From IMG/VR virus record IMGVR_UViG_3300032085_000753, positions 1 to 38,025 of that record: 38,025 nucleotides of DNA, one strand, 5' to 3'. The notes beneath the pieces are model-generated. The model ran no database searches, was not told where the DNA came from, and was given only the letters and a program-made list of their open reading frames with translations. This document shows positions 6,110-38,025 of this stretch, piece by piece (position 1 is the stretch's first letter; the number at the start of each line of letters is the position of its first letter). The position numbers and the translations under genes were made by a program. The stretch is from a virus.

Positions 6110-6141
6110 GGGTTGATGCTTGACGTGTCAGCCCTATTTTT
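6109..6141 (+). terminator. Possible terminator or leader hairpin just after the late promoter
   Basis: AGGGTTGA (6109-6116) pairs with TCAGCCCT (6128-6135) with one G-U pair and an 11-base loop, followed by ATTTTTG. It could stop read-through RNA before the cassette; late transcripts starting near 6114 would lack part of the 5' arm and escape it. Confidence 0.45.
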
Positions 6142-6157
6142 GTATGTGAGGATTGTT

Positions 6158-8385: not shown

Positions 8386-9004
8386 TGAAATCTTTAGAAA
8401 ACACTCTTGTGACAAAGACAGGCATCATTACTATGAAGTATATGCTAAAGACTTTGAGCCACGAAGAAATGACCCAATCAATATCTTAGAAGTTGGTATT
8501 CATAAAGGAAGCAGTCACTCTTCGTGGGTAGATTACTTTCCAAATGCTCAAGTCTATGGTATTGATATCTTCACTTGGCCTGATGGCTCAACACGAATCA
8601 CACCAGAGCAAATCTCCATACTGAAGCACGAAAGAGTTCATTGGCTGAAAGCGGACTCTACACTCCCCATCTATAGTGATATCAAATCTGCATGGGGTAA
8701 TGTCAAATTTGATTTCATCATCGATGATGGTCTTCACACACCAGAAGCAAACACAAAGACGTTTGAAAATCTTATCGGCTTTCTAAAAGATGATGGCATC
8801 TTCTATGTAGAAGACGTTTGGCCACTTGATATCATGACAGAAAATGAGTGGTCACATCAGTGGATTAAAGATAGACCAGAGCGTTATAACTTAGAACTTT
8901 GGGACGGTTTTGCAAAAGCAATAAATCAATATAAGGTGACAAAGATTGATTTGAGGGGACCGTCTCGTATGCCAGATAGTTATATCGTAAAGATAGAAAA
9001 ATGA
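8375..9004 (+). CDS. SAM-dependent methyltransferase (macrocin O-methyltransferase/CmcI type)
   Basis: A 209-residue class I methyltransferase. Motif I is LEVGIHKGSS (38-47), followed by AQVYGIDIF (motif II region, acidic residue D64), then FDFIIDDGLHTP (113-122) and GIFYVEDVW. The DDGLH(T/S) block is typical of the CmcI and macrocin-type sugar O-methyltransferases. It would methylate a hydroxyl of the sugar built by this cassette. It overlaps the sulfotransferase by 11 bases and the phosphodiesterase-like gene by 4 bases. Confidence 0.85.
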   Translation: MKLNEIFRKHSCDKDRHHYYEVYAKDFEPRRNDPINILEVGIHKGSSHSSWVDYFPNAQVYGIDIFTWPDGSTRITPEQISILKHERVHWLKADSTLPIYSDIKSAWGNVKFDFIIDDGLHTPEANTKTFENLIGFLKDDGIFYVEDVWPLDIMTENEWSHQWIKDRPERYNLELWDGFAKAINQYKVTKIDLRGPSRMPDSYIVKIEK

Positions 9005-9468
9005 TATACATTGCACATCGTGGAAACATAGCCGGACCCAACCCAGAGTTTGAAAATAGCGTTGAGTATATTCAAAGTGCTTTAGCACAAGGATACGATT
9101 GTGAGATTGATGTGTGGTATGATCATGATCGTAAATGGGGATGGTTTCTTGGTCATGACTATCCACAATATCCCATTTATTCTCAGTTTCTAGCAACACC
9201 AAGGCTATGGATACATTGTAAAAACGACAAAGCATTGTATCAAATGTCAAAGCATGTTCACTCACAATTTCAATATTTTTGGCACCAAGAAGATGACTAC
9301 ACACTAACTTCTAGAAATAATATCTGGTGTCTACCCAATAAAGAAATATCATATAGAAATAGAAGCAGAGCAATTGTTGTAATGCCAGAAGTTCATAACC
9401 AAGACGTTAAAGGATATGGTGGCATCTGTTCAGACTATGTAGAGGCATATAAAAATGGATCAAATTAA
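9001..9468 (+). CDS. Glycerophosphodiester phosphodiesterase-like protein
   Basis: A 155-residue protein with the start of the GDPD/PI-PLC-like fold: AHRGN at 5-9, FENSVEYI, GYDCEIDVWYD and a later LGHDYP. The HR, E-D and HD residues of the GDPD active site are therefore present. It is shorter than free-standing GDPD enzymes (about 240-300 residues) and lacks the usual C-terminal barrel half, so its substrate may differ. Similar short HRG proteins occur in capsule and lipopolysaccharide clusters as I recall. It overlaps its neighbours (4 and 14 bases), consistent with one operon. Confidence 0.7.
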   Translation: MIYIAHRGNIAGPNPEFENSVEYIQSALAQGYDCEIDVWYDHDRKWGWFLGHDYPQYPIYSQFLATPRLWIHCKNDKALYQMSKHVHSQFQYFWHQEDDYTLTSRNNIWCLPNKEISYRNRSRAIVVMPEVHNQDVKGYGGICSDYVEAYKNGSN

Positions 9469-10000
9469 ACTACTAATACTTGATGTGGATGGTGTGCTAA
9501 CAAAAGGCGTGAAGGTATATGATAAAGACCACACACCAGTATATAAAGAGTTCATGTGTAAGGACTTCACTGCAATCAAGAGGTTCATAGCAGCAGGGAT
9601 AGATGTTGTGATGATATCAGGTGATGAGTGGAATCGTACAATGGCAGAGAAGCGAAACATTCCATTCTTCTGCACGAGAGACAACAACTTCAGCCTAGAT
9701 AAGTCAAAGCATCTGGACACTTTTTCTGAAATGTATAATCTTGATAGAGGTCAAATGGCATTTGTCGGTGATGACTATTTTGACCTGTCGATGTTTGAAG
9801 TTTTAGATTGGTCGTTCTGTCCATCTGATGCTCCAAACACGATAAAAGAAGCAGCACACAGAGTACTACAGTCGAAGGGTGGCGAAGGTGTCATCGTTGA
9901 ATTATACGATATTGCATCAGAAGAATGGATCATTGAAGCGTCTATGGAAGAGGTGTTAGAGTTAGATACGAAGGAACTAGCGAGTGCAGAAATGAAATGA
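9455..10000 (+). CDS. HAD-family phosphatase (KdsC-like)
   Basis: A 181-residue haloacid dehalogenase-type phosphatase. The nucleophile motif is LILDVDGVLT (7-16) with D10 and D12, motif II is SGD (55-57), and motif IV is GDDYFDL (105-111). K82-SKHL probably contributes the motif III lysine. The small size with no cap domain matches KdsC and related sugar-phosphate phosphatases (tetrameric, 170-190 residues). It would remove a phosphate from a sugar intermediate before activation by the nucleotidyltransferase two genes downstream. The kinase gene overlaps it by 4 bases. Confidence 0.8.
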   Translation: MDQIKLLILDVDGVLTKGVKVYDKDHTPVYKEFMCKDFTAIKRFIAAGIDVVMISGDEWNRTMAEKRNIPFFCTRDNNFSLDKSKHLDTFSEMYNLDRGQMAFVGDDYFDLSMFEVLDWSFCPSDAPNTIKEAAHRVLQSKGGEGVIVELYDIASEEWIIEASMEEVLELDTKELASAEMK

Positions 10001-10665
10001 ATCTATACGATTTAGCGCTTTACGGGCATCTTACAGTAGACCATATCATTAAAGATTTCAAAGAGAGCATATCTTTGGGTGCAATCGCTAACTTCTGGAT
10101 TGCGATTAAGAAGATTAATAATGTTCTTAAAGTAAAGTTGAATCCATGCGCTATAGGTGATGCAATCATTCTAGTAGATGAATGTATGAGTCAACGTGTT
10201 GGTAGAGGAAATCTAAACACAAGATGCGTAACTCCGGAAATAGTGAATTCACGCTGGCATCACATTATGTATCTCAATCAACTGAAAGATACGTCATTCA
10301 TATCTGATATAAAGTCTGGTATCATATCAGCAGATACGACAGCGGGCAGTATGGTTATTCATGAGCAACTCAAGCATATAGATTATCTTTTCATATCAGA
10401 CGAAGACATTGATTGTGATGTTGAAGAACTTGCATCGTTAGTAAAAGGTTGGGTTATTCTACATTACCCAGGCGGTAGCTATTCGTCAGATGGTAATAGA
10501 AACATCACAAAGACGAATGATGTAATCAAGAACATAAATATTTTGGGTGCTGGCGATACGTTTGCTGCTTGCTTTATTTCATCTATGTTGATGGAAGATA
10601 ATATAGACAATGCATTAGATTATGCACACGAGAACACGATTAAGGTATTGACAGATGAAATATAA
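9997..10665 (+). CDS. Compact PfkB-family sugar kinase
   Basis: A 222-residue protein. NILGAGDTFAACF near the C-terminus is the PfkB signature with the catalytic Asp (GAGD), and YGHLTVDHII with LGAIANFWIAI at the N-terminus fits the substrate-binding half (G-N-x-A type). It is shorter than usual PfkB enzymes (about 300 residues); the loss seems to be spread over the middle rather than at the ends. HldE-N-type sugar kinases of heptose synthesis belong to this family. It lies between the HAD phosphatase and the nucleotidyltransferase, overlapping each. Confidence 0.75.
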   Translation: MNLYDLALYGHLTVDHIIKDFKESISLGAIANFWIAIKKINNVLKVKLNPCAIGDAIILVDECMSQRVGRGNLNTRCVTPEIVNSRWHHIMYLNQLKDTSFISDIKSGIISADTTAGSMVIHEQLKHIDYLFISDEDIDCDVEELASLVKGWVILHYPGGSYSSDGNRNITKTNDVIKNINILGAGDTFAACFISSMLMEDNIDNALDYAHENTIKVLTDEI

Positions 10666-11359
10666 CTTACTTTTACCAATCGCTGGCAATGGACAAAGGT
10701 TTGTTGATAAAGGGTACGAGTTACCAAAACCTCTTATCAAAACAAATGGTAAGACAATTATTGAAAGGTCGCTTGAGTCGGTCAAGTTAGACCAATGCAA
10801 TATGATATTCGTTGTACGGCGAGATCACATTGATGATTTCAATATACAAGAAAAGCTATTAGAGAAATATCCAGACGCTAAGTTTGTTGTCGCAGAGACA
10901 TTAACTGATGGTGCTTTGAGTACTTGTATGTTAGCAAAAGATTATATCAATACTGATGAACCACTTATCATCTTTACGCCAGATTGTTATTTTGAACCAC
11001 AAATAGTACCTGAAGATATTGATGAGAAATATCAAGGAATGGTATGTGTGTTCAACTCTACAAGCCCAGCACATAGCTATGTAAAGTTAGATAAAGCTGG
11101 GTTTGTAACTGAGACTGCTGAAAAAGAAGTTATCAGTGATATGGCTATTGGTGGTTTATACTATTTCAGTGTGGGTAGAATGTTCGTTCATTGTGCTGAG
11201 TATATGATAAGTAATAATATGAGAACCAAAGGAGAGTTTTACATCGCACCAACATTCAACCTGTTAATAATGGAGGGACTGAAAGTTGGTGTAGATGTTA
11301 ATACAAAGCATGAAATTCTGGGCACACCAGAAGATTTGGAGCAAGTGAATGAGAGATAA
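10655..11359 (+). CDS. Sugar-phosphate nucleotidyltransferase
   Basis: A 234-residue NTP_transferase-family protein. LLLPIAGNGQRFVDKG (5-20) followed by ELPKPLI (22-28) is the glycine-rich NTP-binding loop with its K-P-L/M lysine. FTPDCYF carries the acidic residue of the metal site, and IGGLYYFSVG is the usual family segment. It would join a sugar phosphate to a nucleotide, as HddC does for heptose 1-phosphate. The sugar and nucleotide cannot be deduced. The start overlaps the kinase stop, and the transketolase gene starts inside its end. Confidence 0.8.
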   Translation: MKYNLLLPIAGNGQRFVDKGYELPKPLIKTNGKTIIERSLESVKLDQCNMIFVVRRDHIDDFNIQEKLLEKYPDAKFVVAETLTDGALSTCMLAKDYINTDEPLIIFTPDCYFEPQIVPEDIDEKYQGMVCVFNSTSPAHSYVKLDKAGFVTETAEKEVISDMAIGGLYYFSVGRMFVHCAEYMISNNMRTKGEFYIAPTFNLLIMEGLKVGVDVNTKHEILGTPEDLEQVNER

Positions 11360-11990
11360 GCAGCTACGAAAAAGACTGTTGAAACTACTATATGACCATC
11401 AAGAAGAGCATGTAGGTAGTTGCTTTTCGTGTATTGATATCATCGATGATATACACAGTCGTATGAAAAAAGATGATATATTTGTTCTATCAAACGGTCA
11501 TGCTGCGTATGCATTGTATTGTATTCTAGAAAAATATCATGGTATTGATGCTGATGCTCTTGTGAAAAAGCATCTGGGTCATCCAAATCTAGATGTTGAA
11601 AACAAAATCTACTGCTCAACGGGTAGTCTCGGACAAGGGATAACGATTGCAGTTGGTGCAGCAATCGCAAGCCCACACAAAAACGTCTATGTCACTATAA
11701 CAGATGGTGAGTGTGCAGAAGGTTCTGTTTGGGAAGCATTGAGACTTATACACGAACGAAATCTACAAAATATAGAGGTTCATGTCAATGCTAATGGCTA
11801 TGCCTGCTATGACCCGGTTGATGTAAATTATCTAGAGAGAAGATGTAGAGCGTTCTTGCCCAATATATGTTTTCACAGAACGAAGGTAAATGAACTGTCG
11901 TTTCTAGCTGGTATCGATGCTCATTATATGAAGATGAGTGAAGAACAATATCTTAAAGGATTGAAAGAGATAGACAATGAGCGTTCGTAA
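11349..11990 (+). CDS. Transketolase-like N-terminal (PP domain) subunit
   Basis: A 213-residue thiamine-diphosphate-binding subunit. HEEHVGSC-like start, LSNGHAAYALY, GHPN and STGSLGQG are the conserved blocks of the transketolase PP domain. TDGECAEGSVWEA followed by VNANGY is the metal/diphosphate motif (canonical GDGE...N), with Thr in place of the first Gly. It is split from the Pyr domain, which the next gene encodes; the two genes overlap by 14 bases. It would move two-carbon units between sugar phosphates, and may make the precursor for the activated sugar. Confidence 0.8.
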   Translation: MRDKQLRKRLLKLLYDHQEEHVGSCFSCIDIIDDIHSRMKKDDIFVLSNGHAAYALYCILEKYHGIDADALVKKHLGHPNLDVENKIYCSTGSLGQGITIAVGAAIASPHKNVYVTITDGECAEGSVWEALRLIHERNLQNIEVHVNANGYACYDPVDVNYLERRCRAFLPNICFHRTKVNELSFLAGIDAHYMKMSEEQYLKGLKEIDNERS

Positions 11991-12459
11991 AAAATTCACA
12001 GAACTGCTATATCACGAAATGGCTATCAACGAGAACATCGTGATTGTTGCTGGTGACCTTGGATGGAAACAATTCGACCAGCACAGACTGACATACCCAG
12101 ACAGATTTATTAATGTGGGTGCTGCTGAACAACTGATGGTTGGCGCAGCAGTTGGTATGGCACTTGAGAAGAAAATTCCTATTGTATATTCTATGACGCC
12201 CTTTACAATCTACAGACCATTCGAGTTTATACGAAATCAATTAGATGTTGATAAGATTCCTGTCAAGTTATTTGGTGCAGGTAGAGACTACGATTATGAC
12301 TGGTTAGGACCGTCACATTGGGCACACGATGACAAAGAGCATATGAGCGGATTCAAAAACATAAAGAAATTATGGCCCATAGATGCTGATGATATGGAAT
12401 CAAAGTTTAAAGAGATATTGTATGATGATGCTCCATATTATGTGAACTTATCACGATGA
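11977..12459 (+). CDS. Transketolase-like Pyr-domain subunit
   Basis: A 160-residue protein. FINVGAAEQLMVGAAVGMAL carries the catalytic Glu (AAEQ) that activates thiamine diphosphate, and DLGWKQF plus PIVYSMTPF match the Pyr-domain core. It has no C-terminal transketolase domain, so together with the upstream subunit it forms a minimal PP+Pyr enzyme, like split transketolases in surface-sugar clusters. The overlap with the upstream gene suggests coupled synthesis of both chains in equal amount. The next gene overlaps by 4 bases. Confidence 0.8.
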   Translation: MSVRKKFTELLYHEMAINENIVIVAGDLGWKQFDQHRLTYPDRFINVGAAEQLMVGAAVGMALEKKIPIVYSMTPFTIYRPFEFIRNQLDVDKIPVKLFGAGRDYDYDWLGPSHWAHDDKEHMSGFKNIKKLWPIDADDMESKFKEILYDDAPYYVNLSR

Positions 12460-13199
12460 AGATAGCAATTGGAATATCTGGACTGTATAGAAATAATGTT
12501 GGTGGCAATGGTGTAAGACGCCGACCAGTTAGCGTGTCTTCTAATTTATTGGAAATGAAAAATAAATTCAAAGCAGATATGTATTATCACACATGGGATA
12601 CTGAACTTAACAAAATTCCATTAGAGTATCGCAGTGGTAACTTTTTCACTACACCAGAACCAATTATGGAATATCATCCTATATTTGACCCAAAGCCAAC
12701 TAGAAGTCCAAAGCATCATTGGTATAGAAGAACTAAAACCGATGGTGATAAAACGCTTCACGGCAACAAGCAAATAATTGGTTACAGCAATCTCTTCGAT
12801 AAGATACCAAATGATTATGACCTCTACATCAGAACAAGATGGGACTGCTCAATCAATCCAAATTTTGACTTTGAGTCATGGTATGATGTTGCACTCAATG
12901 AAGGTCCAGTTGGTTTCATGATTAGAACCAGTGGTCTAAACAAATATGATTTTCGCAATACAAAAGGTCATATGGTACCCAAAACAGAAGATATAAATCA
13001 ACATACAGACTGGTTTGAACAACTCGCAGATAATTTAATCATACATACTAGAGAGCAATTAGATACGAGTCTGGTATATGATTTGCACGAGCAACGTCAA
13101 CTGTTAGGTGCTGAATGGGGATGGTGGCAAGTAATGAGTAAACCATATGGCGGAACTATACACACAAGCGTTTATGGAGGAGTGAATTTAGAAAGATGA
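12456..13199 (+). CDS. Probable glycosyltransferase-like protein of the glycan cassette
   Basis: A 247-residue protein of no firmly recognised family. It begins KIAIGISGLYRNN, has a HTWDTELN segment and the acidic block DYDLYIRTRWDCSIN, which resembles the R-x-D substrate block of WavE-like and related lipopolysaccharide glycosyltransferases. GAEWGWWQVMSKP near the end is typical of such proteins in phage and capsule clusters. No signal peptide or membrane segment. Its place in the operon, with overlaps of 4 bases on both sides, supports a glycan role. Confidence 0.6.
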   Translation: MKIAIGISGLYRNNVGGNGVRRRPVSVSSNLLEMKNKFKADMYYHTWDTELNKIPLEYRSGNFFTTPEPIMEYHPIFDPKPTRSPKHHWYRRTKTDGDKTLHGNKQIIGYSNLFDKIPNDYDLYIRTRWDCSINPNFDFESWYDVALNEGPVGFMIRTSGLNKYDFRNTKGHMVPKTEDINQHTDWFEQLADNLIIHTREQLDTSLVYDLHEQRQLLGAEWGWWQVMSKPYGGTIHTSVYGGVNLER

Positions 13200-13894
13200 A
13201 ATGCTTTGCAATCGTAATGAAAGACCATGCCCTATCTGAGGGTGGATACAAAACTCTCGTTGAGTCATCAGAAAATGTTGGAAATGACTTTACAATCGAA
13301 AGGTTTGATGCTATCGTAGCAGATAATGTCGATGAGCATATGGAGAAAGAAGGCTTGAAGTGGACTTGGCCAGACAGTGGTCGTGTATACAATGAGAAAC
13401 TCAAGATGAAGTTTCATTATTATGGAGGACCACCAAAGCGTCGTTATGCCTGTGCTATGAGCCACTACTATCTGTGGAAGAAGTGTGTAGAAGAGAGCGA
13501 ACCAATTCTAATTCTAGAACACGATGCTAAGTTTCTTCGTAAGTTTGACGCTCAATATGTGATTGACTCAGATTATGAAGTGATTGGTATCAATGAGCCG
13601 AGAGGAAATACAAGGCTTGATGGTCGCTTTCATTCTGTAGTGCAAACAGCGCCTGGACCACTCGTTGATTGCCCAGTGATTGATAGTATGGAAGTTCCAC
13701 AAGGTATTGCTGGTGCTTCAGCATATGTCATTAAACCAGAAGGAGCAGATCAAATCATTGGTGCTGCTTATGATCATGGAATGTGGCCCAATGATGCATT
13801 GATATGTCAACAACTCTTTCCATTTCTTGGTGTTACTAAGACATACTACACAGATACGCAAAGATTGAAATCAACAACATTTACTAATGCATGA
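13196..13894 (+). CDS. GT25-like glycosyltransferase, last gene of the cassette
   Basis: A 232-residue protein like the first cassette gene. KCFAIVMKD is the N-terminal strand, RRYACAMSHYYLWKKC (82-97) matches the family's A-C-x-x-SH..LW helix and LILEHDAKF (105-113) the acidic ED-D motif. GIAGASAYVIKP is the G-A-x-AY segment. Together with the gene at 6158 this puts two GT25-like enzymes at the ends of the cassette. It overlaps the previous gene by 4 bases; a late promoter for the next block follows 55 bases later. Confidence 0.75.
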   Translation: MKCFAIVMKDHALSEGGYKTLVESSENVGNDFTIERFDAIVADNVDEHMEKEGLKWTWPDSGRVYNEKLKMKFHYYGGPPKRRYACAMSHYYLWKKCVEESEPILILEHDAKFLRKFDAQYVIDSDYEVIGINEPRGNTRLDGRFHSVVQTAPGPLVDCPVIDSMEVPQGIAGASAYVIKPEGADQIIGAAYDHGMWPNDALICQQLFPFLGVTKTYYTDTQRLKSTTFTNA

Positions 13895-29861: not shown

Positions 29862-30250
29862 TGCGTAAAATACTTTTCACTGTTACGTTCGCTCTTGCAG
29901 TTTCTGCTTGTGTGACAAACCAAGATAGCGGTACAGTTATCGGTGGTGTTGCTGGAGGGCTTCTCGGTAACACTATCGGCAAGGGTTCTGGTAGAGGTAT
30001 TGCCACTGTGGGTGGTGCTGTTCTCGGTGCCGTTGTAGGCTCTAAAGTAGGTGAGAATATGGACCAGCCTAAGACCGTTGTCCATATGCCGCCTGCTCAT
30101 CACCTTCCGCACCCTCAAGAACACGAATGCAATGACTACATAACCAATCCTGGCGCATATGATGCTTGTCAGCGTGGTATCAAGCATCGTGAACATCTAG
30201 AGCAAAAGCGCCTTGAGCGAGAAGCGTTTCGACGGGGTGCAAAAAAATAA
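29861..30250 (+). CDS. Glycine-zipper outer-membrane-type lipoprotein
   Basis: A 129-residue lipoprotein precursor. The signal peptide ends in AVSAC with acylated C17. Residues about 25-65 are a glycine zipper (GGVAGGLLGNTIGKGSG, then GGAVLGAVVGSKVG), as in 17-kDa surface antigens and SlyB-type proteins of proteobacteria. The rest is charged, with a Cys pair (CNDY... DACQ). It resembles a host envelope protein taken up by the phage. Possible roles are envelope stress control or exclusion of other phages; unproven. Confidence 0.75.
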   Translation: MRKILFTVTFALAVSACVTNQDSGTVIGGVAGGLLGNTIGKGSGRGIATVGGAVLGAVVGSKVGENMDQPKTVVHMPPAHHLPHPQEHECNDYITNPGAYDACQRGIKHREHLEQKRLEREAFRRGAKK

Positions 30251-30269
30251 TCTTTTTTTGAAAAAACCG

Positions 30270-30298
30270 TTGACATTTGCTGTCAGAGTGCTTATATT
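30270..30298 (+). promoter_or_regulatory. Sigma70-type early promoter
   Basis: TTGACA, 17 bases, TATATT, preceded by a T-tract and an A-tract (CTTTTTTTGAAAAAACCG). It serves the genes from 30332 onward. Confidence 0.8.
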
Positions 30299-30331
30299 AT
30301 AGATATGAACAGAGCAAAGAAGGATTCGAAG

Positions 30332-30484
30332 ATGAAGTTTGACTACACCTCTCACGACCAAATCGACCTTGGTATGCAGCAGTATATCAAAAGCGTGGCG
30401 TGTGTAGATAACATCATCGAGGTGACCCTCGAACAGATAAACGATTATCTCAACGAAATGGATTGGTGGTATGGTGATGAATAA
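30332..30484 (+). CDS. 50-residue acidic hypothetical protein
   Basis: Begins MKFDYTSHDQIDLGMQQYIK and ends MDWWYGDE. It is acidic, with one cysteine. The ATG at 30332 has AAGGA 7 bases upstream; an in-frame ATG at 30305 would sit almost at the expected transcription start and is less likely. The next gene overlaps its end by 14 bases. Function unknown. It is the first gene after the promoter at 30270. Confidence 0.65.
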   Translation: MKFDYTSHDQIDLGMQQYIKSVACVDNIIEVTLEQINDYLNEMDWWYGDE

Positions 30485-31043
30485 AGCATACAAGGTATCC
30501 GTGATTGCTCTGGTGGCTGCGGTGACCTACGCTCTCGTTGCTGATAGAAGCACTGCTAGTAATCCAGATAAGCAATTTCGTATAGTATATGAAACGACTG
30601 ACGCATCTGTGATTGACCAAGCACATTGTCTTGCGACTAATATCTACTTTGAAGCAAGGCACCAAGAAGACGATGAGAAAGAAGCCATCGCTAACGTGGT
30701 TATCAATCGTGCCAGAGATAAATCGTTTCCAGATACAATCTGTGGAGTTGTTTATCAAGCAGTGAGAGATTCGAATGGCAACCCACTTCGCAACAAATGC
30801 CAGTTCTCTTGGTACTGCGATGGTAAGTCAGATAGAATTAAAGATGCTGCTGCTTATGAGGAAGACTTTCTTATCGCACTAGTCGCAATGATGAATCGTG
30901 AAGAAGAAGGACCAGATAATGATAACGCATACGATAACACTAATAATTCTCTTTGGTATCATGCTCATTACGTTGAGCCATATTGGGCAGCAGCATACAC
31001 ATTCCAGCAGCGCATTGGTGCCCACCTCTTCTATAGTCGCTAA
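30471..31043 (+). CDS. SleB-type cell-wall hydrolase, candidate endolysin
   Basis: A 190-residue protein of the Hydrolase_2 (SleB) family: HCLATNIYFEARHQ (the catalytic Glu region), IANVVINRARDKSFPDTI, CQFSWYCDGKSD and the C-terminal HAHYVEPYWA. It cuts peptidoglycan glycan strands. The N-terminus has a hydrophobic segment (about 8-25, VIALVAAVTYALVA), so it could be exported by the host or act as a signal-anchor-release endolysin. The segment contains mostly Ala and Val with few strongly hydrophobic residues, which fits release. It overlaps the next gene by one base. Confidence 0.85.
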   Translation: MVMNKAYKVSVIALVAAVTYALVADRSTASNPDKQFRIVYETTDASVIDQAHCLATNIYFEARHQEDDEKEAIANVVINRARDKSFPDTICGVVYQAVRDSNGNPLRNKCQFSWYCDGKSDRIKDAAAYEEDFLIALVAMMNREEEGPDNDNAYDNTNNSLWYHAHYVEPYWAAAYTFQQRIGAHLFYSR

Positions 31044-31258
31044 TGTCTGAAGAAACTAACATAATCATTCTTGATAAACTTATCGCATCTCGTCTAAAAA
31101 AAGAGAAGGAGTTGAAATACTATCAAGAAGAGTTAATGGAACTACAGGAGAAGATGAAGATGCTTCAAATGGATATCGATGTAACGAATATCATCATTCG
31201 AATGATCAATGATGAAAACGTCGTCGATTTGAAAACATATTTGATTGAGAAGGGATAA
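31043..31258 (+). CDS. Small coiled-coil protein
   Basis: A 71-residue protein, almost wholly helical, with heptad-like leucine spacing from residue 10 to 55 (DKLIASRLKKEKELKYYQEE...). No other motif. It begins at the last base of the hydrolase stop codon, and dCMP deaminase follows 5 bases later. It may form dimers with itself or a partner. Function unknown. Confidence 0.65.
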   Translation: MSEETNIIILDKLIASRLKKEKELKYYQEELMELQEKMKMLQMDIDVTNIIIRMINDENVVDLKTYLIEKG

Positions 31259-31263
31259 TAAAA

Positions 31264-31725
31264 ATGGTTTATTCTGCGGCTGAAGAGGTCGCACACAAAG
31301 AAGAAAAATATCACCGCCTGTATATGGACATTGCATATCGTGTTGCAGAAATGTCTCACGCAAAGCGTCGTAAGGTGGGTTGTGTAATCGTCAAAGATGA
31401 ACGTATCATCTCTATGGGATGGAACGGTATGCCAACTGGAATGCCTAATCTCTGTGAAGACTATGATACTCTTCGTGCTGTATCCACTACGAAAAAAGAG
31501 GTGCTACACGCAGAAGCGAATGCTTTGATGAAACTAGCAAAGTATGGTTCATCGTCAAATGGAGCAACTCTATATACTACGACTTCGCCTTGCTTTGAAT
31601 GTGCGAAGCTGATTTATCAAAGTGGTATTAAAAAATTAGTGTATTCTGAATTCTATACAGATCAGCAACCACTCACTTTTCTATATACTACACCCGGTTT
31701 TAATATTATACATTTGGAGAAATAA
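31264..31725 (+). CDS. dCMP deaminase (deoxycytidylate deaminase)
   Basis: A 153-residue zinc deaminase that turns dCMP into dUMP, feeding dTMP synthesis. H82-A-E84 and P109-C110-x2-C113 are the zinc ligands and catalytic Glu. RKVGCVIVKDERIISMGWNG is the substrate-side segment of the family, and the WNG(M/Y)P run is typical of phage enzymes. It matches the ribonucleotide reductase for thymidine nucleotide supply. No thymidylate synthase is in the window. Confidence 0.9.
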   Translation: MVYSAAEEVAHKEEKYHRLYMDIAYRVAEMSHAKRRKVGCVIVKDERIISMGWNGMPTGMPNLCEDYDTLRAVSTTKKEVLHAEANALMKLAKYGSSSNGATLYTTTSPCFECAKLIYQSGIKKLVYSEFYTDQQPLTFLYTTPGFNIIHLEK

Positions 31726-31986
31726 ATGGGAAAAGGCAAGAAGAGTTCTGGTACGCATTATGTGTCGAAGGGTTCAGTGGGTGTGAATAAGAGCATTACA
31801 AAGGCTGTCAGGCGTGAACGTAGTGAACTTGATAAGATGATGCAGGCGCTCAAGTCTTGGAAACGAGGCTCTCCCACACCACGCTCTATTCAAAGGTCAT
31901 TTGGTGTCACAGCTACAACTGCTCATAGAGATTGGGTTAAGCGTGGCTGGGCAATGAAAGACAAGGCGCCGATTGATGCAGGGTAA
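31726..31986 (+). CDS. Small basic protein with HTH-like segment
   Basis: An 86-residue basic protein (MGKGKKSSGTHYVSKGSVG...). Residues about 48-75 (TPRSIQRSFGVTATTAHRDW) look like a helix-turn-helix in which the second helix would read DNA. It directly follows the dCMP deaminase stop codon. It could be a small phage transcription regulator; the motif is judged by eye only. Confidence 0.55.
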   Translation: MGKGKKSSGTHYVSKGSVGVNKSITKAVRRERSELDKMMQALKSWKRGSPTPRSIQRSFGVTATTAHRDWVKRGWAMKDKAPIDAG

Positions 31987-32218
31987 GTATATATTACAAT
32001 GTGATGTTGATGATACGATCCGTGATCAGTTTATGCAAATTGTGAAAGCATACAAGCGTCAATATGTAATCGTGTATAATAGAATTCCAGACGGAAGTCA
32101 CATCATAACTTTTAATGATGTTGTCTTTGAAGAATTTATAGAATTTTTAGATCATGTAGAAGGAACAAGTGGAGGATATGATGGAGTATTTGGATATTCT
32201 AGAGAAGCTACACTCTAG
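31976..32218 (+). CDS. Small hypothetical protein
   Basis: An 80-residue acidic protein starting MQGKYILQCDVDDTIRDQF. The start at 31976 (ATG) is preferred to an adjacent TTG. It overlaps the HTH-like gene by 11 bases and the next gene by 38 bases. Alternating strands (YILQCDVD, YVIVYNRI, HIITFNDVVF) suggest a small alpha/beta fold. Not identified. Confidence 0.55.
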   Translation: MQGKYILQCDVDDTIRDQFMQIVKAYKRQYVIVYNRIPDGSHIITFNDVVFEEFIEFLDHVEGTSGGYDGVFGYSREATL

Positions 32219-32468
32219 TCGTTGTTGGGTTACCTTTAAGAAGGTCAATGGCGATATGCGAACGATGTGGTGTACTCTTCAAAAAGAGTATTTACCAGAG
32301 CAACAGGACATTGAAGAAGTTCTAGTTAAGCCAGAAGATGAACCCAAAGCAATTGCTGTATGGGATTTAGAGAAACAGGCTTGGCGTTCTTTTCGTATTG
32401 AGTCTATGGTTAGATTTGAGATTAACAGTTATTTACATCAGAGTGATTTCCATTGGTCGAAATCGTAG
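32181..32468 (+). CDS. SH3-like beta-barrel protein (DUF2693-type)
   Basis: A 95-residue protein. CWVTFKKVNGDMRTMWCTL and AVWDLEKQAWRSFRIESMVRFE are the paired strands of the small phage SH3-like fold I know as DUF2693. Its role in phages is unknown; it may bind a host protein. The ATG at 32181 is chosen because GGAGG is 5 bases away. It overlaps the upstream gene by 38 bases and the glycosyltransferase by 16 bases. Confidence 0.65.
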   Translation: MEYLDILEKLHSSRCWVTFKKVNGDMRTMWCTLQKEYLPEQQDIEEVLVKPEDEPKAIAVWDLEKQAWRSFRIESMVRFEINSYLHQSDFHWSKS

Positions 32469-33391
32469 CAGGCAAACTCATTCGTAATGAGTTGACACAG
32501 AATGCGATGGGTGGAACTGAGATGATGGCAATTGGAATGCAAAAGCGTATTCCACAAGAGTTGCTAAAGAACTTTCAGATTATCCACTCTCGCACTCGTG
32601 AATTACGAGATGATTTAAAAAAGATTCTTGTATGTCATGATTTAGCAGGAGACCCTGAAGTCTCCCACTTGAAATATGATGGCTATAAGAAGTATGATAA
32701 GTTGGTGTTTGTCTCTCAGTGGCAGTTTCAACAATATCATGATTATCTTGGTGTGCCATACAGTCACTCTCATATTCTCAAGAATGCTATTGAACCTATT
32801 GTTGAGCATAAGAAGCCGAATGATGGTAAGATTCGTATCATCTATCATACGACGCCTCATCGTGGGCTGGGTCTACTGTATCCTATCTTTGATGCTCTAT
32901 CTAAGCAGCATGATAATATCGAACTTGATGTGTATAGTTCCTTCAAGATATATGGCTGGGAGCAAAGAGATGAGCCATACAAGGCTCTATTCGATCAACT
33001 CAAGCAACATCCGAAGATTCGCTATCATGGGTCAGTATCTAACAAAGAGGTTAGAAAGGCGCTACAAAGCGCTCACATCTTCGCCTATCCGTCTATCTGG
33101 CAAGAGACTTCGTGTATTGCGTTGATTGAAGCTATGTCTGCTGGGTGTCTCTGTGTCCATCCAAACTATGCTGCTCTATCAGAGACTGCTGCTAATGAGA
33201 CAATCATGTATCAGTGGGATGAGGATGTTCAAGTTCATGCTAACAGAGCATATGAGCATCTCAAAGGTATCGTTGAGTATATTGATAAGCATGGTATGCC
33301 TGATATGGCTAAACAGAAGAATAACACAAACCAAGCATTCAACTGGGGTCTCCGTGTGAATCAATGGACGCAATTTTTATCATCTTTTTAG
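32453..33391 (+). CDS. GT4-like glycosyltransferase
   Basis: A 312-residue GT-B-type enzyme. NAMGGTEMMAIGM is a family motif near the N-terminus, VFVSQWQFQQY and RIIYHTTPHRGLG lie at the hinge, and AYPSIWQETSCIALIEAMSAG (the E-x7-E donor motif) lies in the C-terminal half. It begins with TTG (32453), giving (M)VEIVAGKLIRNEL, which fits homologues I recall. It is early, outside the late glycan cassette, and is preceded by no GT partner. It may modify a host surface sugar or phage DNA; the substrate is not evident. Confidence 0.75.
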   Translation: MVEIVAGKLIRNELTQNAMGGTEMMAIGMQKRIPQELLKNFQIIHSRTRELRDDLKKILVCHDLAGDPEVSHLKYDGYKKYDKLVFVSQWQFQQYHDYLGVPYSHSHILKNAIEPIVEHKKPNDGKIRIIYHTTPHRGLGLLYPIFDALSKQHDNIELDVYSSFKIYGWEQRDEPYKALFDQLKQHPKIRYHGSVSNKEVRKALQSAHIFAYPSIWQETSCIALIEAMSAGCLCVHPNYAALSETAANETIMYQWDEDVQVHANRAYEHLKGIVEYIDKHGMPDMAKQKNNTNQAFNWGLRVNQWTQFLSSF

Positions 33392-33399
33392 AAAAAGAG

Positions 33400-33428
33400 T
33401 TGACATTTGTTTCGATATGATATATATT
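33400..33428 (+). promoter_or_regulatory. Sigma70-type early promoter
   Basis: TTGACA, 17 bases, TATATT, with T/A tracts upstream (TTTTTAGAAAAAGAG). It serves the RNase H gene and its downstream operon. Confidence 0.8.
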
Positions 33429-33456
33429 AAGTATAGTAACAATAAAGGATAAACAA

Positions 33457-34323
33457 GTGATTCTCGTTGATATGAATCAGGTTATGATATCTAACGTCAT
33501 GGTTCAAATTGGCAACCATCATAATGTCGAGTTTGAAGAAAGTCTCATTCGGCATATGGTTCTCAATTCAATTCGCTCGTATCGCCGGAAGTTCGTCAAA
33601 GATTATGGAGAACTCGTTCTCTGTTTCGATGATAAGAACTACTGGCGGCGAGACATATTCCCATACTATAAAGCAAATCGCAAGAAGTCTCGTGAGACCT
33701 CTGAACTTAACTGGAATGAACTTTTTCGTATCCTAAATCTTGTGCGGGATGAACTCAAAGAAGTTTTCCCATACAAAACAGTTCAGGTTGACCGTGCTGA
33801 AGCAGACGATGCAATTGGTACAATCTGTCATAAGTTTGGTGTTGAACTGAATGCTGGCTCAACAGAAAAGATTTTGATTCTTTCTGCTGATAAAGACTTT
33901 ATTCAACTACATAAGTATGCTAATGTAACACAATATGATCCTATTCGTAAGCGATGGATTCGCCATGCTAATCCCAATCAGTACATTATGGAACACATTA
34001 TGAAGGGTGATGCGGGTGATGGTGTGCCTAACATGCTATCAGCAGACGATTGCTTTGTTATGGGGTCTCGGCAGAAGCCAATGACTCGAAAGCGTATTGA
34101 GCAGTTCATGGACGAAATTGAAAACGACTGCTTTTCGAATGAGTATGCTCTTCGGGGGTATCAGCGCAACAAAGCAATGATTGACTTGTCTATGGTGCCT
34201 GAGTATATTCAAGAAGAAGTGATGACTAAATACAATGAGGAGAGTGGTGATCGCTCTAAACTCTTTAACTACTTCATTGAAAAACGATTGAAGAATTTGA
34301 TTGAAAACATAGGTGAATTTTAA
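33457..34323 (+). CDS. rnh: RNase H / 5'-3' flap exonuclease (T4 Rnh-like)
   Basis: A 288-residue FEN-like nuclease that removes RNA primers from lagging-strand fragments. Acidic metal ligands are D5 (ILVDMNQ), CFDDKNYWRR (D58/D59), EADDAIG (115-121), and SADKDF (D145, D147). The helix-3-turn-helix segment KGDAGDGVPN (183-192) follows. The start is GTG with AAAGGA 7 bases upstream. The next gene follows without a gap (stop ends 34323). Confidence 0.9.
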   Translation: MILVDMNQVMISNVMVQIGNHHNVEFEESLIRHMVLNSIRSYRRKFVKDYGELVLCFDDKNYWRRDIFPYYKANRKKSRETSELNWNELFRILNLVRDELKEVFPYKTVQVDRAEADDAIGTICHKFGVELNAGSTEKILILSADKDFIQLHKYANVTQYDPIRKRWIRHANPNQYIMEHIMKGDAGDGVPNMLSADDCFVMGSRQKPMTRKRIEQFMDEIENDCFSNEYALRGYQRNKAMIDLSMVPEYIQEEVMTKYNEESGDRSKLFNYFIEKRLKNLIENIGEF

Positions 34324-34743
34324 ATGCAACTATCTATTTCTGAAATCTTAGACAAAGTATCTAAGATGAAAACAAAATCTGAGAAAGTGAAATGGCTCAA
34401 GCAGAATGAAGCAAAGCCATTGAAGACAGTCCTCAAAGCAATGTACTGTCCTTCTCTCAAATGCCTCTTACCTGAAGGCGCTCCTCCATACACACCATCA
34501 GAAGCAGTAGATGACCATGGTATGCTGTATAGAAATTCGAAGCGTATACCATATTTCTATGAAGGCATTGGCACAAATGTTAAGCCAATGAAGAGAGAAC
34601 AATTGTTCATACAACTGCTTGAGACTGTCAATAAGGATGATGCACTCCTTCTCATCGATATGAAAGATGGAAAGCGTGTCAAGGGACTAACTGCAAAGAC
34701 TATCAACGAAGCATTTTCAAATTTAATCATAGAGGGCAAGTAG
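34324..34743 (+). CDS. Conserved T4-like phage protein (DUF6433-type)
   Basis: A 139-residue protein. It begins with the SEILDKVSKMKTKSEKVKWL pattern and has LKCLLPEGAPPYTPSEA and REQLFIQLLETVNKDDALLL, which match a T4-like family I remember as DUF6433. The role is unknown. It directly follows the RNase H stop codon, so it is likely linked to replication or transcribed with it. Confidence 0.7.
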   Translation: MQLSISEILDKVSKMKTKSEKVKWLKQNEAKPLKTVLKAMYCPSLKCLLPEGAPPYTPSEAVDDHGMLYRNSKRIPYFYEGIGTNVKPMKREQLFIQLLETVNKDDALLLIDMKDGKRVKGLTAKTINEAFSNLIIEGK

Positions 34744-34750
34744 ACTAAAA

Positions 34751-34921
34751 ATGGGCAAAACTTATCGTCGAGAGAAAAACGTTTGGGACGACGACCCAAC
34801 TCGATTTGAGCGCAGAGTAAAGAAAAGCAGAGGCGCTCAAAAAGCAAAAGAACACGCCTATCAAGAACGGCGTCGTCAGAAAAACAAAATTCGAGAGAAT
34901 GAGGTTTATGAAGAACTCTAA
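34751..34921 (+). CDS. 56-residue highly basic protein
   Basis: Begins MGKTYRREKNVWDDDPTRFE and ends EVYEEL. The middle (RRVKKSRGAQKAKEHAYQER) is very rich in Arg and Lys, which suggests nucleic-acid binding. It is 7 bases after the upstream stop codon. The next gene overlaps its end by 23 bases in another frame. Not identified. Confidence 0.65.
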   Translation: MGKTYRREKNVWDDDPTRFERRVKKSRGAQKAKEHAYQERRRQKNKIRENEVYEEL

Positions 34922-35507
34922 ATTGATACTAACTGATTGCGATGGTGTATTACTTGACTGGTCGTATCGATTCTTCCAGTTCATGGAAGAAAAGGGGTAT
35001 ACACTATCTGATGGCTATCAACACGTCTATGGCATCGATAAGGTATTCGATGAAGTCGTTGATAAGGCTGATGGTCGTAGACTTGTAACAGAGTTTAATG
35101 AGAGTGCTTGGATTGGGTTTCTACCCGCACTTAGAGATGCAGTGAAGTATGTAAAAAAGCTGAATGAAGAGCATGGATATATCTTCGGCGTAATTACATC
35201 ACTCTCTACTAACTCATATGCTACAGCCCTTCGTGAAGAAAACTTGGTGAGAGTATTCGGAGAAAATGTCTTTGACTTCATCACTTGTATTGAAACGGGT
35301 GCTGATAAAGACGTTGAGTTGATGAAGTTTCAGGATTCAGAATGCTGGTGGATTGAAGATAAAGTAGAGAATGCAGAATGTGGATTGAAGTTTAACCTCA
35401 ATCCAATTCTTATGCGACACACTCACAATCAAAGCTATATTACTTCAAATATGCGTACTGCAAGAAATTGGAAACAAATATATAACATCGTCACTGGAGA
35501 ACAATAA
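34899..35507 (+). CDS. HAD-family hydrolase
   Basis: A 202-residue HAD protein. LILTDCDGVLLDW near the start is motif I (DxD), GVITSLS is motif II and WWIEDKVENAECG near 150 fills the motif IV place. It could dephosphorylate a nucleotide or sugar phosphate; I recall similar proteins in marine T4-like phages. Alternative start ATG 34908 gives 199 residues. It overlaps the next gene by one base. Confidence 0.7.
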   Translation: MRFMKNSKLILTDCDGVLLDWSYRFFQFMEEKGYTLSDGYQHVYGIDKVFDEVVDKADGRRLVTEFNESAWIGFLPALRDAVKYVKKLNEEHGYIFGVITSLSTNSYATALREENLVRVFGENVFDFITCIETGADKDVELMKFQDSECWWIEDKVENAECGLKFNLNPILMRHTHNQSYITSNMRTARNWKQIYNIVTGEQ

Positions 35508-35737
35508 TGCCTACATATTCATTTGAGCATATTAAAACTGGTGACACTATGACAACCTTTTGTACATGGAAGGAAGCACAAGAAGTTATTAAGGATGGTA
35601 GCTATAAAATGTTAGTCTCTGCACCTGCTATTGTATCAGGTACTGGTAGTGTTGCTGGTAAGATTGATAACGGGTTCAATGACGTTTTGACAAGAGTGAA
35701 AAAAGCCAATCGGGGATCAAACATTCAAACAAAATAG
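35507..35737 (+). CDS. FmdB-like small phage protein without zinc cysteines
   Basis: A 76-residue protein beginning MPTYSFEHIKTGDTMTTF. The layout, with the PTYxFxxxxTG start, APAIVSGTGSVAG and the DGFNDVLTRVKKANRGSNI end, fits FmdB-like phage proteins I recall. The zinc-binding cysteines of bacterial FmdB are missing (one Cys only). Role unknown. The PhoH gene starts 8 bases downstream. Confidence 0.6.
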   Translation: MPTYSFEHIKTGDTMTTFCTWKEAQEVIKDGSYKMLVSAPAIVSGTGSVAGKIDNGFNDVLTRVKKANRGSNIQTK

Positions 35738-35745
35738 GACAATCC

Positions 35746-36501
35746 ATGCTCACAAGTCCAGAACGCTTAACAAAAAGACAAAAAAGAAAATTGCGCCAAG
35801 ATAAAGTCTTGGACAAATCTGGAAACCTGAACGTAGGAGAGAAGTTTAAACTCAACTCAATCAAACCAATAACAATAGCACAAGAAGACGCTTTTCATTC
35901 TTGGCACAACGATTATCATCTAATGCTTCATGGTATTGCTGGTACAGGAAAGACATTCATTGGTTTGTATCTAGCACTGAAGTCTGTGCTTGAAGACAAA
36001 TCTTTTAATAAAGTATTCATCATCAGATCAGTAGTACCAACAAGAGATATGGGTTTCTTACCCGGCAATCAGAAAGAGAAGATGAAGGTGTATGAAGCAC
36101 CTTATCAGGACATTGCTAGAAAGCTATTCAACCGTGGTGACGCTTACGAGATACTAAAGACAAAGAACATCGTAGAGTTTATGTCAACCTCGTTTGTTCG
36201 TGGTATTACATTAGATGATTGTGTTATTATTGTAGACGAAGTTCAAAATATGAATGCGATGGAGTTGCATTCTGTGATGACAAGAGTTGGTGAAAACTGT
36301 AAGATTATATTTTGTGGAGACGTTCGTCAAGATGACTTGACAAGCGAACGAAAAAAAGAATTGAGCGGACTAAGAGAGTTTTTACGCATTATAGATAGTA
36401 TGGAAGAATTTGATTTTATCGAATTTACTGCTGAAGATATTGTTCGCTCAGACCTTGTAAAGTCCTATATTATAGCGAGGTCCAAACTGGGACTAGATTG
36501 A
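35746..36501 (+). CDS. phoH: PhoH-like ATPase
   Basis: A 251-residue P-loop ATPase. Walker A is GIAGTGKT (63-70), Walker B is VIIVDEVQN (160-168), and FCGDVRQDD is the sensor region. RSVVPTRDMGFLPGNQKEK is the typical PhoH substrate segment. PhoH proteins are frequent in marine phages; they may unwind RNA or nucleic acid, but the biological role is not settled. The stop overlaps the next start (TGATG). Confidence 0.9.
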   Translation: MLTSPERLTKRQKRKLRQDKVLDKSGNLNVGEKFKLNSIKPITIAQEDAFHSWHNDYHLMLHGIAGTGKTFIGLYLALKSVLEDKSFNKVFIIRSVVPTRDMGFLPGNQKEKMKVYEAPYQDIARKLFNRGDAYEILKTKNIVEFMSTSFVRGITLDDCVIIVDEVQNMNAMELHSVMTRVGENCKIIFCGDVRQDDLTSERKKELSGLREFLRIIDSMEEFDFIEFTAEDIVRSDLVKSYIIARSKLGLD

Positions 36502-37172
36502 TGAAACACTTTAATCATGTGGAGGCTCCAACTCTAACGGAGCTAATTGCTGAAACGACGGGTAGCGGTAGGGTGTACAATACGCCTGAAGGAAATCGCT
36601 ACCCGTCAGTTACGACTATACTATCAGAACTAAGCAAAGCAGGTATTGCTGCTTGGCGAAAACGTGTTGGCGCAGAAGAAGCTAATCGTATTTCTACACA
36701 GGCTAGCACAAGAGGTACAAAGATCCACCAAATCTGTGAAGACTATCTCAACAATAAGCCTGATTATCTTGATGGTCAGATGCCAGCAAACGTCTTTACG
36801 TTCAAACAAATCCAACCTATCCTAGATCAGTATGTGGATAACATCCAATATCTAGAAGCGCCTTTGTATTCTGACTTTCTGAAAACAGCGGGTAGGGTAG
36901 ATTGTATCGCAGAGTTCGACGGGAAACTCTCCATTATTGATTTCAAAACATCTCGTAAACCCAAAAAGAAAGAATGGATTTCTAACTACTTTATGCAAGC
37001 ATCTTGCTATGCTGTGATGTATGAGGAACGAACTGAAATCCCAGTCAGTCGCACCGTAGTGATTGTTGCGGTCGATGGCTCTGAACCACAAGTGTTTGTT
37101 GAAAACAGAGACAACTTCATTGAAGAGTTTGTGGATGCCAGAGTCTCATACAAGGAGAAGTATAATGTTTAA
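36501..37172 (+). CDS. RecB-like PD-(D/E)XK exonuclease
   Basis: A 223-residue nuclease. GRVDCIAEF (131-139, D134) and IIDFKTS (145-151, D147 and K149) are the metal-binding motifs; QASCY (166-170) is the QxxxY motif of RecB-like exonucleases. It probably degrades or processes DNA ends during replication and recombination. ATG 36501 is the start; an adjacent TTG is less likely. It overlaps PhoH by one base and the exported gene below by 8 bases. Confidence 0.85.
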   Translation: MKHFNHVEAPTLTELIAETTGSGRVYNTPEGNRYPSVTTILSELSKAGIAAWRKRVGAEEANRISTQASTRGTKIHQICEDYLNNKPDYLDGQMPANVFTFKQIQPILDQYVDNIQYLEAPLYSDFLKTAGRVDCIAEFDGKLSIIDFKTSRKPKKKEWISNYFMQASCYAVMYEERTEIPVSRTVVIVAVDGSEPQVFVENRDNFIEEFVDARVSYKEKYNV

Positions 37173-37518
37173 ATTACTATCTGCAATTACTATCGCTGCT
37201 GTTATTATGATTTCAACTCCCGCAAAATCGGCTATATTTACTATGCCAGTCAGTCTGATTTGTGATGATGCAAAAGAGATTACAGAGTATGTTAATAAGG
37301 AAGGTTATGTCTTGGTTGCAAGTGGGCTGACAAAAACCGCTAAAGGCGATATATTCGTAGGTGTATACGCTCATAAGGAAGATTTGATTGTTCTTGGTGT
37401 TGATCCTGAAGGATATGCTTGCTTCATCGTTGAAATTAATGAAGCACTAGAGTGGGAGTTTGATATGAAAAAGAATCTCCCTGAACCAACAGATAAGAGC
37501 CCAAAAATTCCCTCATAA
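37165..37518 (+). CDS. Exported hypothetical protein
   Basis: A 117-residue protein with a signal peptide (MFKLLSAITIAAVIMISTPAKS|A). The mature part is beta-rich (YVLVASGLTKTAKGDIFVGVYAHKE) with two cysteines (near 32 and 80), and ends in a Pro/Lys-rich tail. The start at 37165 has AAGGAG 7 bases upstream; longer in-frame readings run back into the nuclease gene and lack a ribosome site. Role unknown; it is likely periplasmic. Confidence 0.7.
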   Translation: MFKLLSAITIAAVIMISTPAKSAIFTMPVSLICDDAKEITEYVNKEGYVLVASGLTKTAKGDIFVGVYAHKEDLIVLGVDPEGYACFIVEINEALEWEFDMKKNLPEPTDKSPKIPS

Positions 37519-37523
37519 AAAGG

Positions 37524-37552
37524 TTGACTTTATATCCCTTCTCGTATAGTAT
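37524..37552 (+). promoter_or_regulatory. Sigma70-type early promoter
   Basis: TTGACT followed after 17 bases by TAGTAT; a better match (TATAGT) lies at 15 bases. It serves the tRNA-containing reading frame at 37581. Confidence 0.6.
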
Positions 37553-37580
37553 ATAAAAATACTAATGAGGAGAGACAGAG

Positions 37581-38012
37581 ATGACGATGCATATGCTACC
37601 TGTTTACTTTAGTACAACGAGTACGAAGAAGCGTAAACAGAAGAAGTCAAAGAAGCAGCAACAAACAGATGCTGCTCATGCAAAGTTTCTCAAGAAGATG
37701 GGATATAAAGGGCCTGTAGTTCAGCGGTCAGAACCCGCCGCTCATAACGGCGTTGTCGCAGGTTCGAATCCTGCCGGGCCCACCAAACGGAGCGTAGCGC
37801 AGCCTGGTAGCGCATCTGCTTTGGGAGCAGAGGGCCGCAAGTTCGAATCTTGCCGCTCCGACCAATTTTATAATAGTAGCAGTGCTAAGAAAGACGAGAA
37901 GGTCTATAGTGGCGAGCGTAAGCTACTTGGCATTGCAACGATGCACAAGAGTAATATGGTTCCAGTGTTTTCTACTGAAGATGCTGAAGCACTAGCAAAG
38001 ATGAGGAGGTAA
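37581..38012 (+). CDS. Phage protein whose reading frame runs through two tRNA genes
   Basis: A 143-codon frame, ATG at 37581 with GAGGAG 10 bases upstream. Residues 1-43 ([10 protein letters not shown], then a Lys/Gln-rich segment) and about 96-143 (with [20 protein letters not shown]) look like true protein; I recall the latter as conserved in marine T4-like phages. Residues 44-95 are translated from the two tRNA genes and read as nonsense (for example [14 protein letters not shown]), yet the frame has no stop in them. Either the insert is tolerated, or RNase cleavage at the tRNAs splits the message so that no full protein is made. Homologues without the insert would be expected. Confidence 0.6.
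37710..37785 (+). tRNA. tRNA-Ile (CAU anticodon, lysidine-type, reads AUA)
   Basis: Full cloverleaf: acceptor GGGCCTG with CGGGCCC; D-arm GTTC with GAAC; anticodon stem CGCCG with CGGCG around loop CTCATAA (anticodon CAT at 37743-37745); T-arm GCAGG with CCTGC and loop TTCGAAT; CCA encoded. The CTCATAA loop, the variable loop and T-arm match bacterial tRNA-Ile2 rather than Met; initiator features (three G-C pairs in the anticodon stem, unpaired first base) are absent. Isoleucine identity needs host TilS to make lysidine. An elongator Met tRNA is the alternative. Confidence 0.85.
37788..37864 (+). tRNA. tRNA-Pro (UGG)
   Basis: Full cloverleaf: acceptor CGGAGCG with CGCTCCG; D-arm GCGC with GCGC around AGCCTGGTA; anticodon stem TCTGC with GCAGA, loop TTTGGGA (anticodon TGG, 37822-37824); T-loop TTCGAAT; CCA encoded. 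It follows the first tRNA by two bases, so both are probably cut from one transcript. It resembles alphaproteobacterial tRNA-Pro. Confidence 0.95.
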
Positions 38013-38014
38013 AA

Positions 38015-38025
38015 ATGACTGATAA
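38015..38025 (+). CDS. Start of a further gene, cut by the right edge
   Basis: ATG ACT GAT preceded by AGGAGG 5 bases upstream (the ribosome site lies in the last codons of the tRNA-containing frame). Only three codons are visible. Confidence 0.5.

Follow-up and report, generated by a model that had tools for sequence, protein, structure and literature searches.

A probable slot for exchangeable tRNA genes within the reading frame of a small phage protein

Can a stretch of DNA encode tRNAs and, in the same letters, the middle part of a protein? This question is raised by the end of IMG/VR virus record IMGVR_UViG_3300032085_000753, which was analysed over its complete length of 38,025 nucleotides and is referred to here as the window. 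The original prediction was that the ATG at 37581 opens a frame which passes through two tRNA genes without a stop codon until 38012, and that this is either a recent tRNA cassette insertion which kept the frame, or a message that is mRNA and tRNA precursor at once. The frame itself was confirmed (37581..38012, + strand, 143 aa, stop codon at 38010-38012), as were the start of the first tRNA at codon 44 (37710 being the first base of that codon) and the end of the second tRNA in codon 95 (37864).

An open reading frame that runs through two tRNA genes

The protein matched the phrog_27048 profile (residues 1-143 vs profile positions 1-127 of 127, E 1.2e-13), as did the tRNA-free relative L150 (E 2.9e-27; loci are given here by L numbers); Pfam gave no match at E≤1 for the window protein and L056, and two matches for L150, both under their cut-offs. 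The conserved N part (codons 1-43, 37581..37709) holds a basic tail and a predicted helix, and is followed on the same strand by a tRNA with anticodon CAT (37710..37785), a 2-nt spacer AA (37786..37787), tRNA-Pro(TGG) (37788..37864) and the C part (37865..38009), which consists of a short linker and a conserved module ending in ...MRR, with a predicted hairpin-helix. Both tRNAs were recognised by ARAGORN and by Rfam (67.3 bits for CAT and 67.8 bits for Pro, with a gathering score of 29), contain an encoded CCA and begin at codon position 1. The CAT tRNA was labelled Met by ARAGORN from its anticodon; by a rule which we assume to hold here, its acceptor-stem pairs C4-G69 and C5-G68 point to Ile2 of the lysidine type, which makes the tRNA-Ile identity of the original prediction likely. 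A Shine-Dalgarno-like GAGGAGA (37567..37573, + strand) is located ahead of the start codon, and a promoter-like TTGACT-N17-TAGTAT (37524..37552, + strand, 9/12 matches) lies just 5' of the ORF; the latter is weak alone, with three such sites found across the window vs 2.0 expected from shuffles. The next ORF on the + strand, starting with MTD, is clipped by the window end (38015..38025); a complete ORF with this start is present in L001 and L003. The record also encodes PhoH, a PD-(D/E)XK exonuclease, both ribonucleotide reductase subunits and DNA primase, and its translations give the impression of consecutive ORFs at 6113-13894 that resemble glycosyltransferases, methyltransferases, HAD proteins and nucleotidyltransferases.

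As the gene sits at the end of its record, an assembly artefact or chimera was considered, but recurrence contradicts this: a second contig, L001, shows the same arrangement with 99% identity across residues 1-143 and extends further downstream, and nested tRNAs were found in 119 distinct genes among the matches listed, leaving an artefact with virtually no credibility. A spliced catalytic intron was likewise rejected, with no Rfam intron family found at E≤0.1 in 30000-38025 and the insert being free of stop codons.

Selection on the reading frame and on the tRNAs

Relatives were collected as 405 loci, comprising 400 from five IMG/VR scans, the window's own record and four named phage records. 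The whole protein was used as query in one scan, which therefore favours tRNA-bearing genes, and the C part only and the N part only were used in two scans each. The best 80 matches were taken per IMG/VR scan, and hence gene counts do not equal natural frequencies; genes were deduplicated by DNA, and 43 loci with only the C part (lacking an N-part match >25 bits) were left uncounted. Among the matches listed, in 119 of the 188 distinct genes a single frame stayed open between N part and C module across nested tRNAs (one tRNA in 75 genes, two in 43 and three in one), and 63/188 were tRNA-free and in frame. N part and C module thus shared one open frame in 182/188 genes listed, with two others clipped by contig ends and four being tRNA-bearing genes with the N and C parts in different frames, in which the N part (L029 and L034) or the C part (L207) is replaced, or the N part is shifted by one base (L297). 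The 164 nested tRNAs of the matches listed represent seven anticodons, with a single phase used per tRNA type: Pro(TGG) 62, Arg(TCT) 59, Ala(TGC) 17, Thr(TGT) 6, CAT of 76 nt 8, CAT of 78 nt 6, Trp(CCA) 3 and Ile(TAT) 3. An initial impression that phase 2 is never used fell with genes carrying another C module, where tRNA-Trp(CCA) occupies that phase.

We also rejected the idea that 25 loci with only the N part are broken genes, as two are clipped where their contigs end, and deduplication reduces the remaining 23 to 15 distinct frames that are intact and carry a different C module, of the AYNKG type. In L174, L221, L229, L383 and L388 the MHKSN module is swapped for AYNKG...GKRR or ...IGR, with the N part unchanged. 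In isolated phages, the C-module queries matched six records of four phages; no tRNA was predicted by ARAGORN around the gene in the stretches taken from these four phages, and the tRNA-bearing query reached 80% coverage in none of the isolated-phage records. For the 11 loci from genome contigs, the 1.7 kb upstream of each match was free of tRNAs. ARAGORN reported tmRNA* genes, a mark which we take to denote permuted tmRNA, near tRNA-free family members in L410 (1678-2126) and L416 (1941-2285).

The phase in which the nested tRNAs are read was stop-free in all 93 distinct nested tRNA sequences among the matches listed, compared to 32/186 for the other phases, which argues that in-frame nesting is not due to chance. 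Some but not all copies of the Arg, Ala, Pro and 78-nt CAT tRNAs also had an unused phase open, and the used phase was never closed. The three phases were open in 34, 44 and 21% of 118 distinct non-nested tRNAs from the same loci, and of 119 non-nested tRNAs (with 7 near contig ends left out) 11 were located inside an ATG-to-stop frame of ≥60 aa and three inside one of ≥100 aa; these three all belong to L072, where their 113-aa frame was taken as chance. Non-nested tRNAs were often open in the phase used by the nested type (Pro 5/6, Ala 5/5, Thr 9/10, Arg 2/4, Trp 1/2, Ile 0/2), which suggests that selection acts mainly on the phase of entry and not on the tRNA sequence. The same counts would fit a through-frame that is just a by-product of tRNA sequence rules, with unrelated genes on either side, but this is contradicted by the tRNA-free relatives, which unite both flanks in one frame. 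Furthermore, a return to the C frame has one chance in three, giving a rough product over 10 tRNA classes of 10^-8.6 when one independent insertion per class is assumed, and we regard a by-product as extremely improbable.

The queries with a single flank gave a consistent picture. With the N part only (160 loci, 71 duplicates dropped, 89 distinct genes, tRNAs sought within 420 nt), all tRNAs were in frame in 80/80 tRNA-bearing distinct genes listed; the C core was reached by 78 of these, one was clipped by a contig end and one was L207. With the C part only (160 loci, 13 duplicates dropped, tRNAs sought within 420 nt upstream), 65/70 tRNA-bearing distinct genes listed continued in frame to a recognised N part; of the other five, three were clipped at the contig start, one lacked a recognised N part, and one, which is probably L152 with tRNA-Thr at the frame start, had a tRNA reaching beyond the frame. 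The view of the flanks as real phage protein was borne out, as both are conserved parts of one family and form one frame in tRNA-free relatives; the relatives showed neither unrelated flanks nor a separate downstream start common to them.

Could the transcript always be cut by RNase P and 3' processing, with the N peptide ending on a nonstop message, the C module made from an internal start and the through-frame left unused? With Shine-Dalgarno motifs disregarded, an in-frame ATG occurs between the last tRNA and the core in 86/119 genes listed (in L012 at 16 nt past the CCA end), so that separate initiation is possible in those genes, and an in-frame ATG also lies ahead of the core in 39/63 tRNA-free genes listed. 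However, split products need neither stop-free tRNAs nor a common frame, yet both are kept in the 93/93 sequences and 80/80 genes listed. In the window gene, none of the codons ATG, GTG and TTG occurs in frame after tRNA-Pro until the ATG that opens MHKSN. Starts ahead of the C core that follow the tRNAs and are preceded by a Shine-Dalgarno motif were found in only 5/119 tRNA-bearing genes listed, the window gene not being one of them, and such starts are no rarer in tRNA-free genes (7/63 listed). Together with a dead tRNA in L053 that keeps the frame (described below), this makes obligatory cleavage unlikely.

For the 110 MHKSN-class genes with tRNAs, dN/dS was low in both flanks, at 0.174 in the N part and 0.209 in the C part (calculated from pairs with 0.15<pS<0.6, i.e. 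1168/5995 for the N part and 1683 for the C part), and the peptide inside the tRNAs was little constrained, with a pN/pS of 0.64 for Pro and 1.3 for Arg. Covariation was tested for the nested Pro and Arg tRNAs: cloverleaf pairing was 98.7% for Pro (32 sequences) and 99.8% for Arg (31 sequences), with 115 double-change cells vs 34.6 in shuffles and 36 vs 7.7, respectively, and none of 500 shuffles was as high on pairing percentage and double changes. The number of further stem pair types was not above that in shuffles, being reached by 250/500 for Pro and 63/500 for Arg, and the fold of the 435-nt message had a z of -1.81 (5/100 shuffles as good) without clean cloverleaves being drawn. While the kept frame indicates that the read-through protein matters, the cloverleaf covariation indicates that the tRNA matters as well. 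In AlphaFold2 models of the window protein, the tRNA-coded residues were almost without secondary structure (block means 42 to 64) and were flanked by the helix at residues 24-39 and the hairpin-helix at residues 117-142, with a pTM of only 0.23, and of 0.27 for a tRNA-free relative; a fold search with this low-confidence tRNA-free model gave an uncharacterised phage protein as the single match at E≤0.001.

Replacement, turnover and decay of nested tRNAs

In tRNA-free relatives the site of the tRNAs is occupied by an ordinary linker, and the median distance from N start to core was 99 residues without tRNA, 100 with one and 122 with two tRNAs. Codons 44-95 are thus not the exact insertion that had been envisaged; rather, the tRNA replaces an ordinary linker of similar length in relatives, and closely similar genes differ by a tRNA in place of linker (for example L012 vs L009, and L003 vs L001, with L001 being a near copy of the window gene). 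A quick tree (483 columns) was built from the 163 genes whose N score was ≥45 bits; on it, tRNA content changed at least 42 times, a number which may be inflated by recombination, and tRNA presence changed at least seven times. A recent single insertion is rejected in view of the spread over 119 distinct genes listed, and with these at least 42 changes the first of the two original options is not favoured, whereas the second, a message serving as both mRNA and tRNA precursor, is favoured by the sequences.

Some nested tRNAs have decayed. A tRNA-Pro in the linker of L053 is dead: it retains 77.5% identity across 80 columns, has a 3-nt insert in the anticodon arm, lacks the TGG anticodon and was missed by both ARAGORN and Rfam, with phase 0 kept and the old frame still being read. 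Truncated remnants in the old phase were found in L191, L227 and L279 (Pro) and in L039 (Arg). These five genes show that a tRNA can turn into linker, as is expected if the transcripts make protein only and the tRNAs are inserts which become linkers and are no longer produced. Against this stand the compensatory covariation of the nested Pro and Arg tRNAs, the encoded CCA in the nested tRNAs inspected, and the acceptance by ARAGORN of the tRNAs in 119 genes listed, which leave transcripts for protein only with very little chance of being the explanation.

In L288 (~822-918), L292 (~2303-2399) and L298, the in-frame linker before tRNA-Pro resembles an odd class II tRNA which, judged by eye, has a clear acceptor and T arm, a loop of 11 in the anticodon arm, and a stem with compensatory changes between L288 and L292. 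This element was not reported by ARAGORN in the three loci or by Rfam in L288 and L292, and short tRNA-like matches in other phases in these three genes were taken to be its T arm. Matches of 15 nt to tRNA-Trp in L229 and L230 (E 0.006) were too weak to count.

Based on the comparison of sequences, we consider it probable that the linker of this small phage protein is a slot for swappable tRNAs, and that the message is translated through as well as serving as tRNA precursor. The phrog_27048 protein would have a basic, helix-bearing N part joined by a disordered linker to its conserved C-terminal module, and in one large phage group the DNA of the linker would act as slot for one to three often-exchanged tRNA genes, each kept only if the frame stays open and returns to the C module. 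With the frame open and under selection, ribosomes would read straight through to give a protein with a tRNA-encoded linker, and the same transcript would be a precursor from which RNase P and 3' processing free the tRNAs. Cutting by RNase P at the tRNA 5' end would leave an N fragment that lacks a stop codon and a C fragment that lacks a regular start; tRNA release would destroy that copy of the mRNA, so that each transcript would yield either protein or tRNA, not both, and a balance would presumably be set between translation and tRNA release. A dead tRNA sequence could persist as ordinary linker in the same frame, with L053 as the one clear case.

Putative expression signals and comparison with known systems

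A promoter-like site was found upstream of 50/96 tRNA-bearing genes listed (distinct upstream regions) vs 3.1 expected from shuffles, and of 16/62 tRNA-free genes listed vs 1.9 expected, and an SD motif before the script-assigned start was present in only 34/112 tRNA-bearing genes listed. In the L009-type upstream region the sequence TTGACA-N17-TATAGT ends 6 nt before the ATG; the message may thus be leaderless, and the 5' leader of the pre-tRNA would then consist mostly of N-terminal coding sequence. A bS21-like motif was present within 450 nt downstream in 44/116 testable tRNA-bearing genes vs 1/59 tRNA-free genes listed, with one such member matching PF01165 (E 7.3e-15). In L009, L030 and L174 the tRNA-bearing gene is followed by a gene for the phage bS21 ribosomal protein. 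The adjacency to bS21 agrees with a function in host translation, although it may simply be the mark of a single lineage.

It is conceivable, although we consider it doubtful, that the slot also acts as a switch, with the exclusive output of tRNA or protein used to shift host translation, and with codon supply retuned by tRNA swaps. If so, the balance would be timed from the gene's own promoter, near a phage bS21 gene in many members, and tRNA sequence would become genuine protein sequence, with swaps obeying survival of the frame. The family provides a large natural set (119 distinct genes listed, seven anticodons) in which one DNA stretch serves tRNA and protein, and opens to test the competition between ribosome and RNase P, the swapping of phage tRNAs and the passage from noncoding RNA gene to protein-coding sequence, for which the dead tRNA in L053 resembles an intermediate stage. 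Gene callers which discard ORFs over tRNAs would probably miss or cut such genes.

Phage tRNA arrays between genes contain tRNA types which may supplement phage translation, and show fast turnover; unlike these, the array described here lies inside a protein gene with the frame kept. Rickettsia palindromic elements are in-frame inserts in ORFs, and are alike in that structured sequence is tolerated in frame within coding genes, but they are mobile repeats in many genes, whereas here tRNAs are found at one site in one family. These elements are named in PMC2694212. In the literature searched, with subscription papers and preprints outside its scope, we found no phage tRNA nested in a protein ORF, and the accessible parts of PMC10865867, PMC10879173, PMC2694212 and PMC3220722 do not describe a tRNA inside a protein ORF.

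Elsewhere such nesting is already on record. In mitochondria of the animal Armadillidium, a full tRNA-Lys is located inside the cox1 coding region in direct orientation (Doublet 2015, as cited in PMC8124441), a similar arrangement in a compact organelle genome, from which the phage family differs by tRNA exchange. In Alphaproteobacteria, tRNA-Sec (selC) is nested in the selB ORF (Mukai 2021, PMC8124441). The phage genes share with selB-selC an entire same-strand tRNA in frame inside an ORF, an open frame conserved in relatives, and tRNA remnants retained as coding sequence (here in L053, L039, L191, L227 and L279); the proposal that a transcript yields either protein or tRNA has been made for selB-selC as well, and is a hypothesis there too. 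In selB-selC, however, a single tRNA type extends the C-terminus of SelB, the protein that binds this tRNA; this does not apply to the family described here, which occurs in phages, has seven anticodons, one to three tandem tRNAs and many swaps, uses an internal linker between conserved parts, and encodes a protein without a known link to tRNA. A tRNA nested in an ORF is therefore not new in itself; the occurrence in phages, the range of tRNA types, the tandem arrays, the internal position and the many exchanges set the present family apart from selB-selC.
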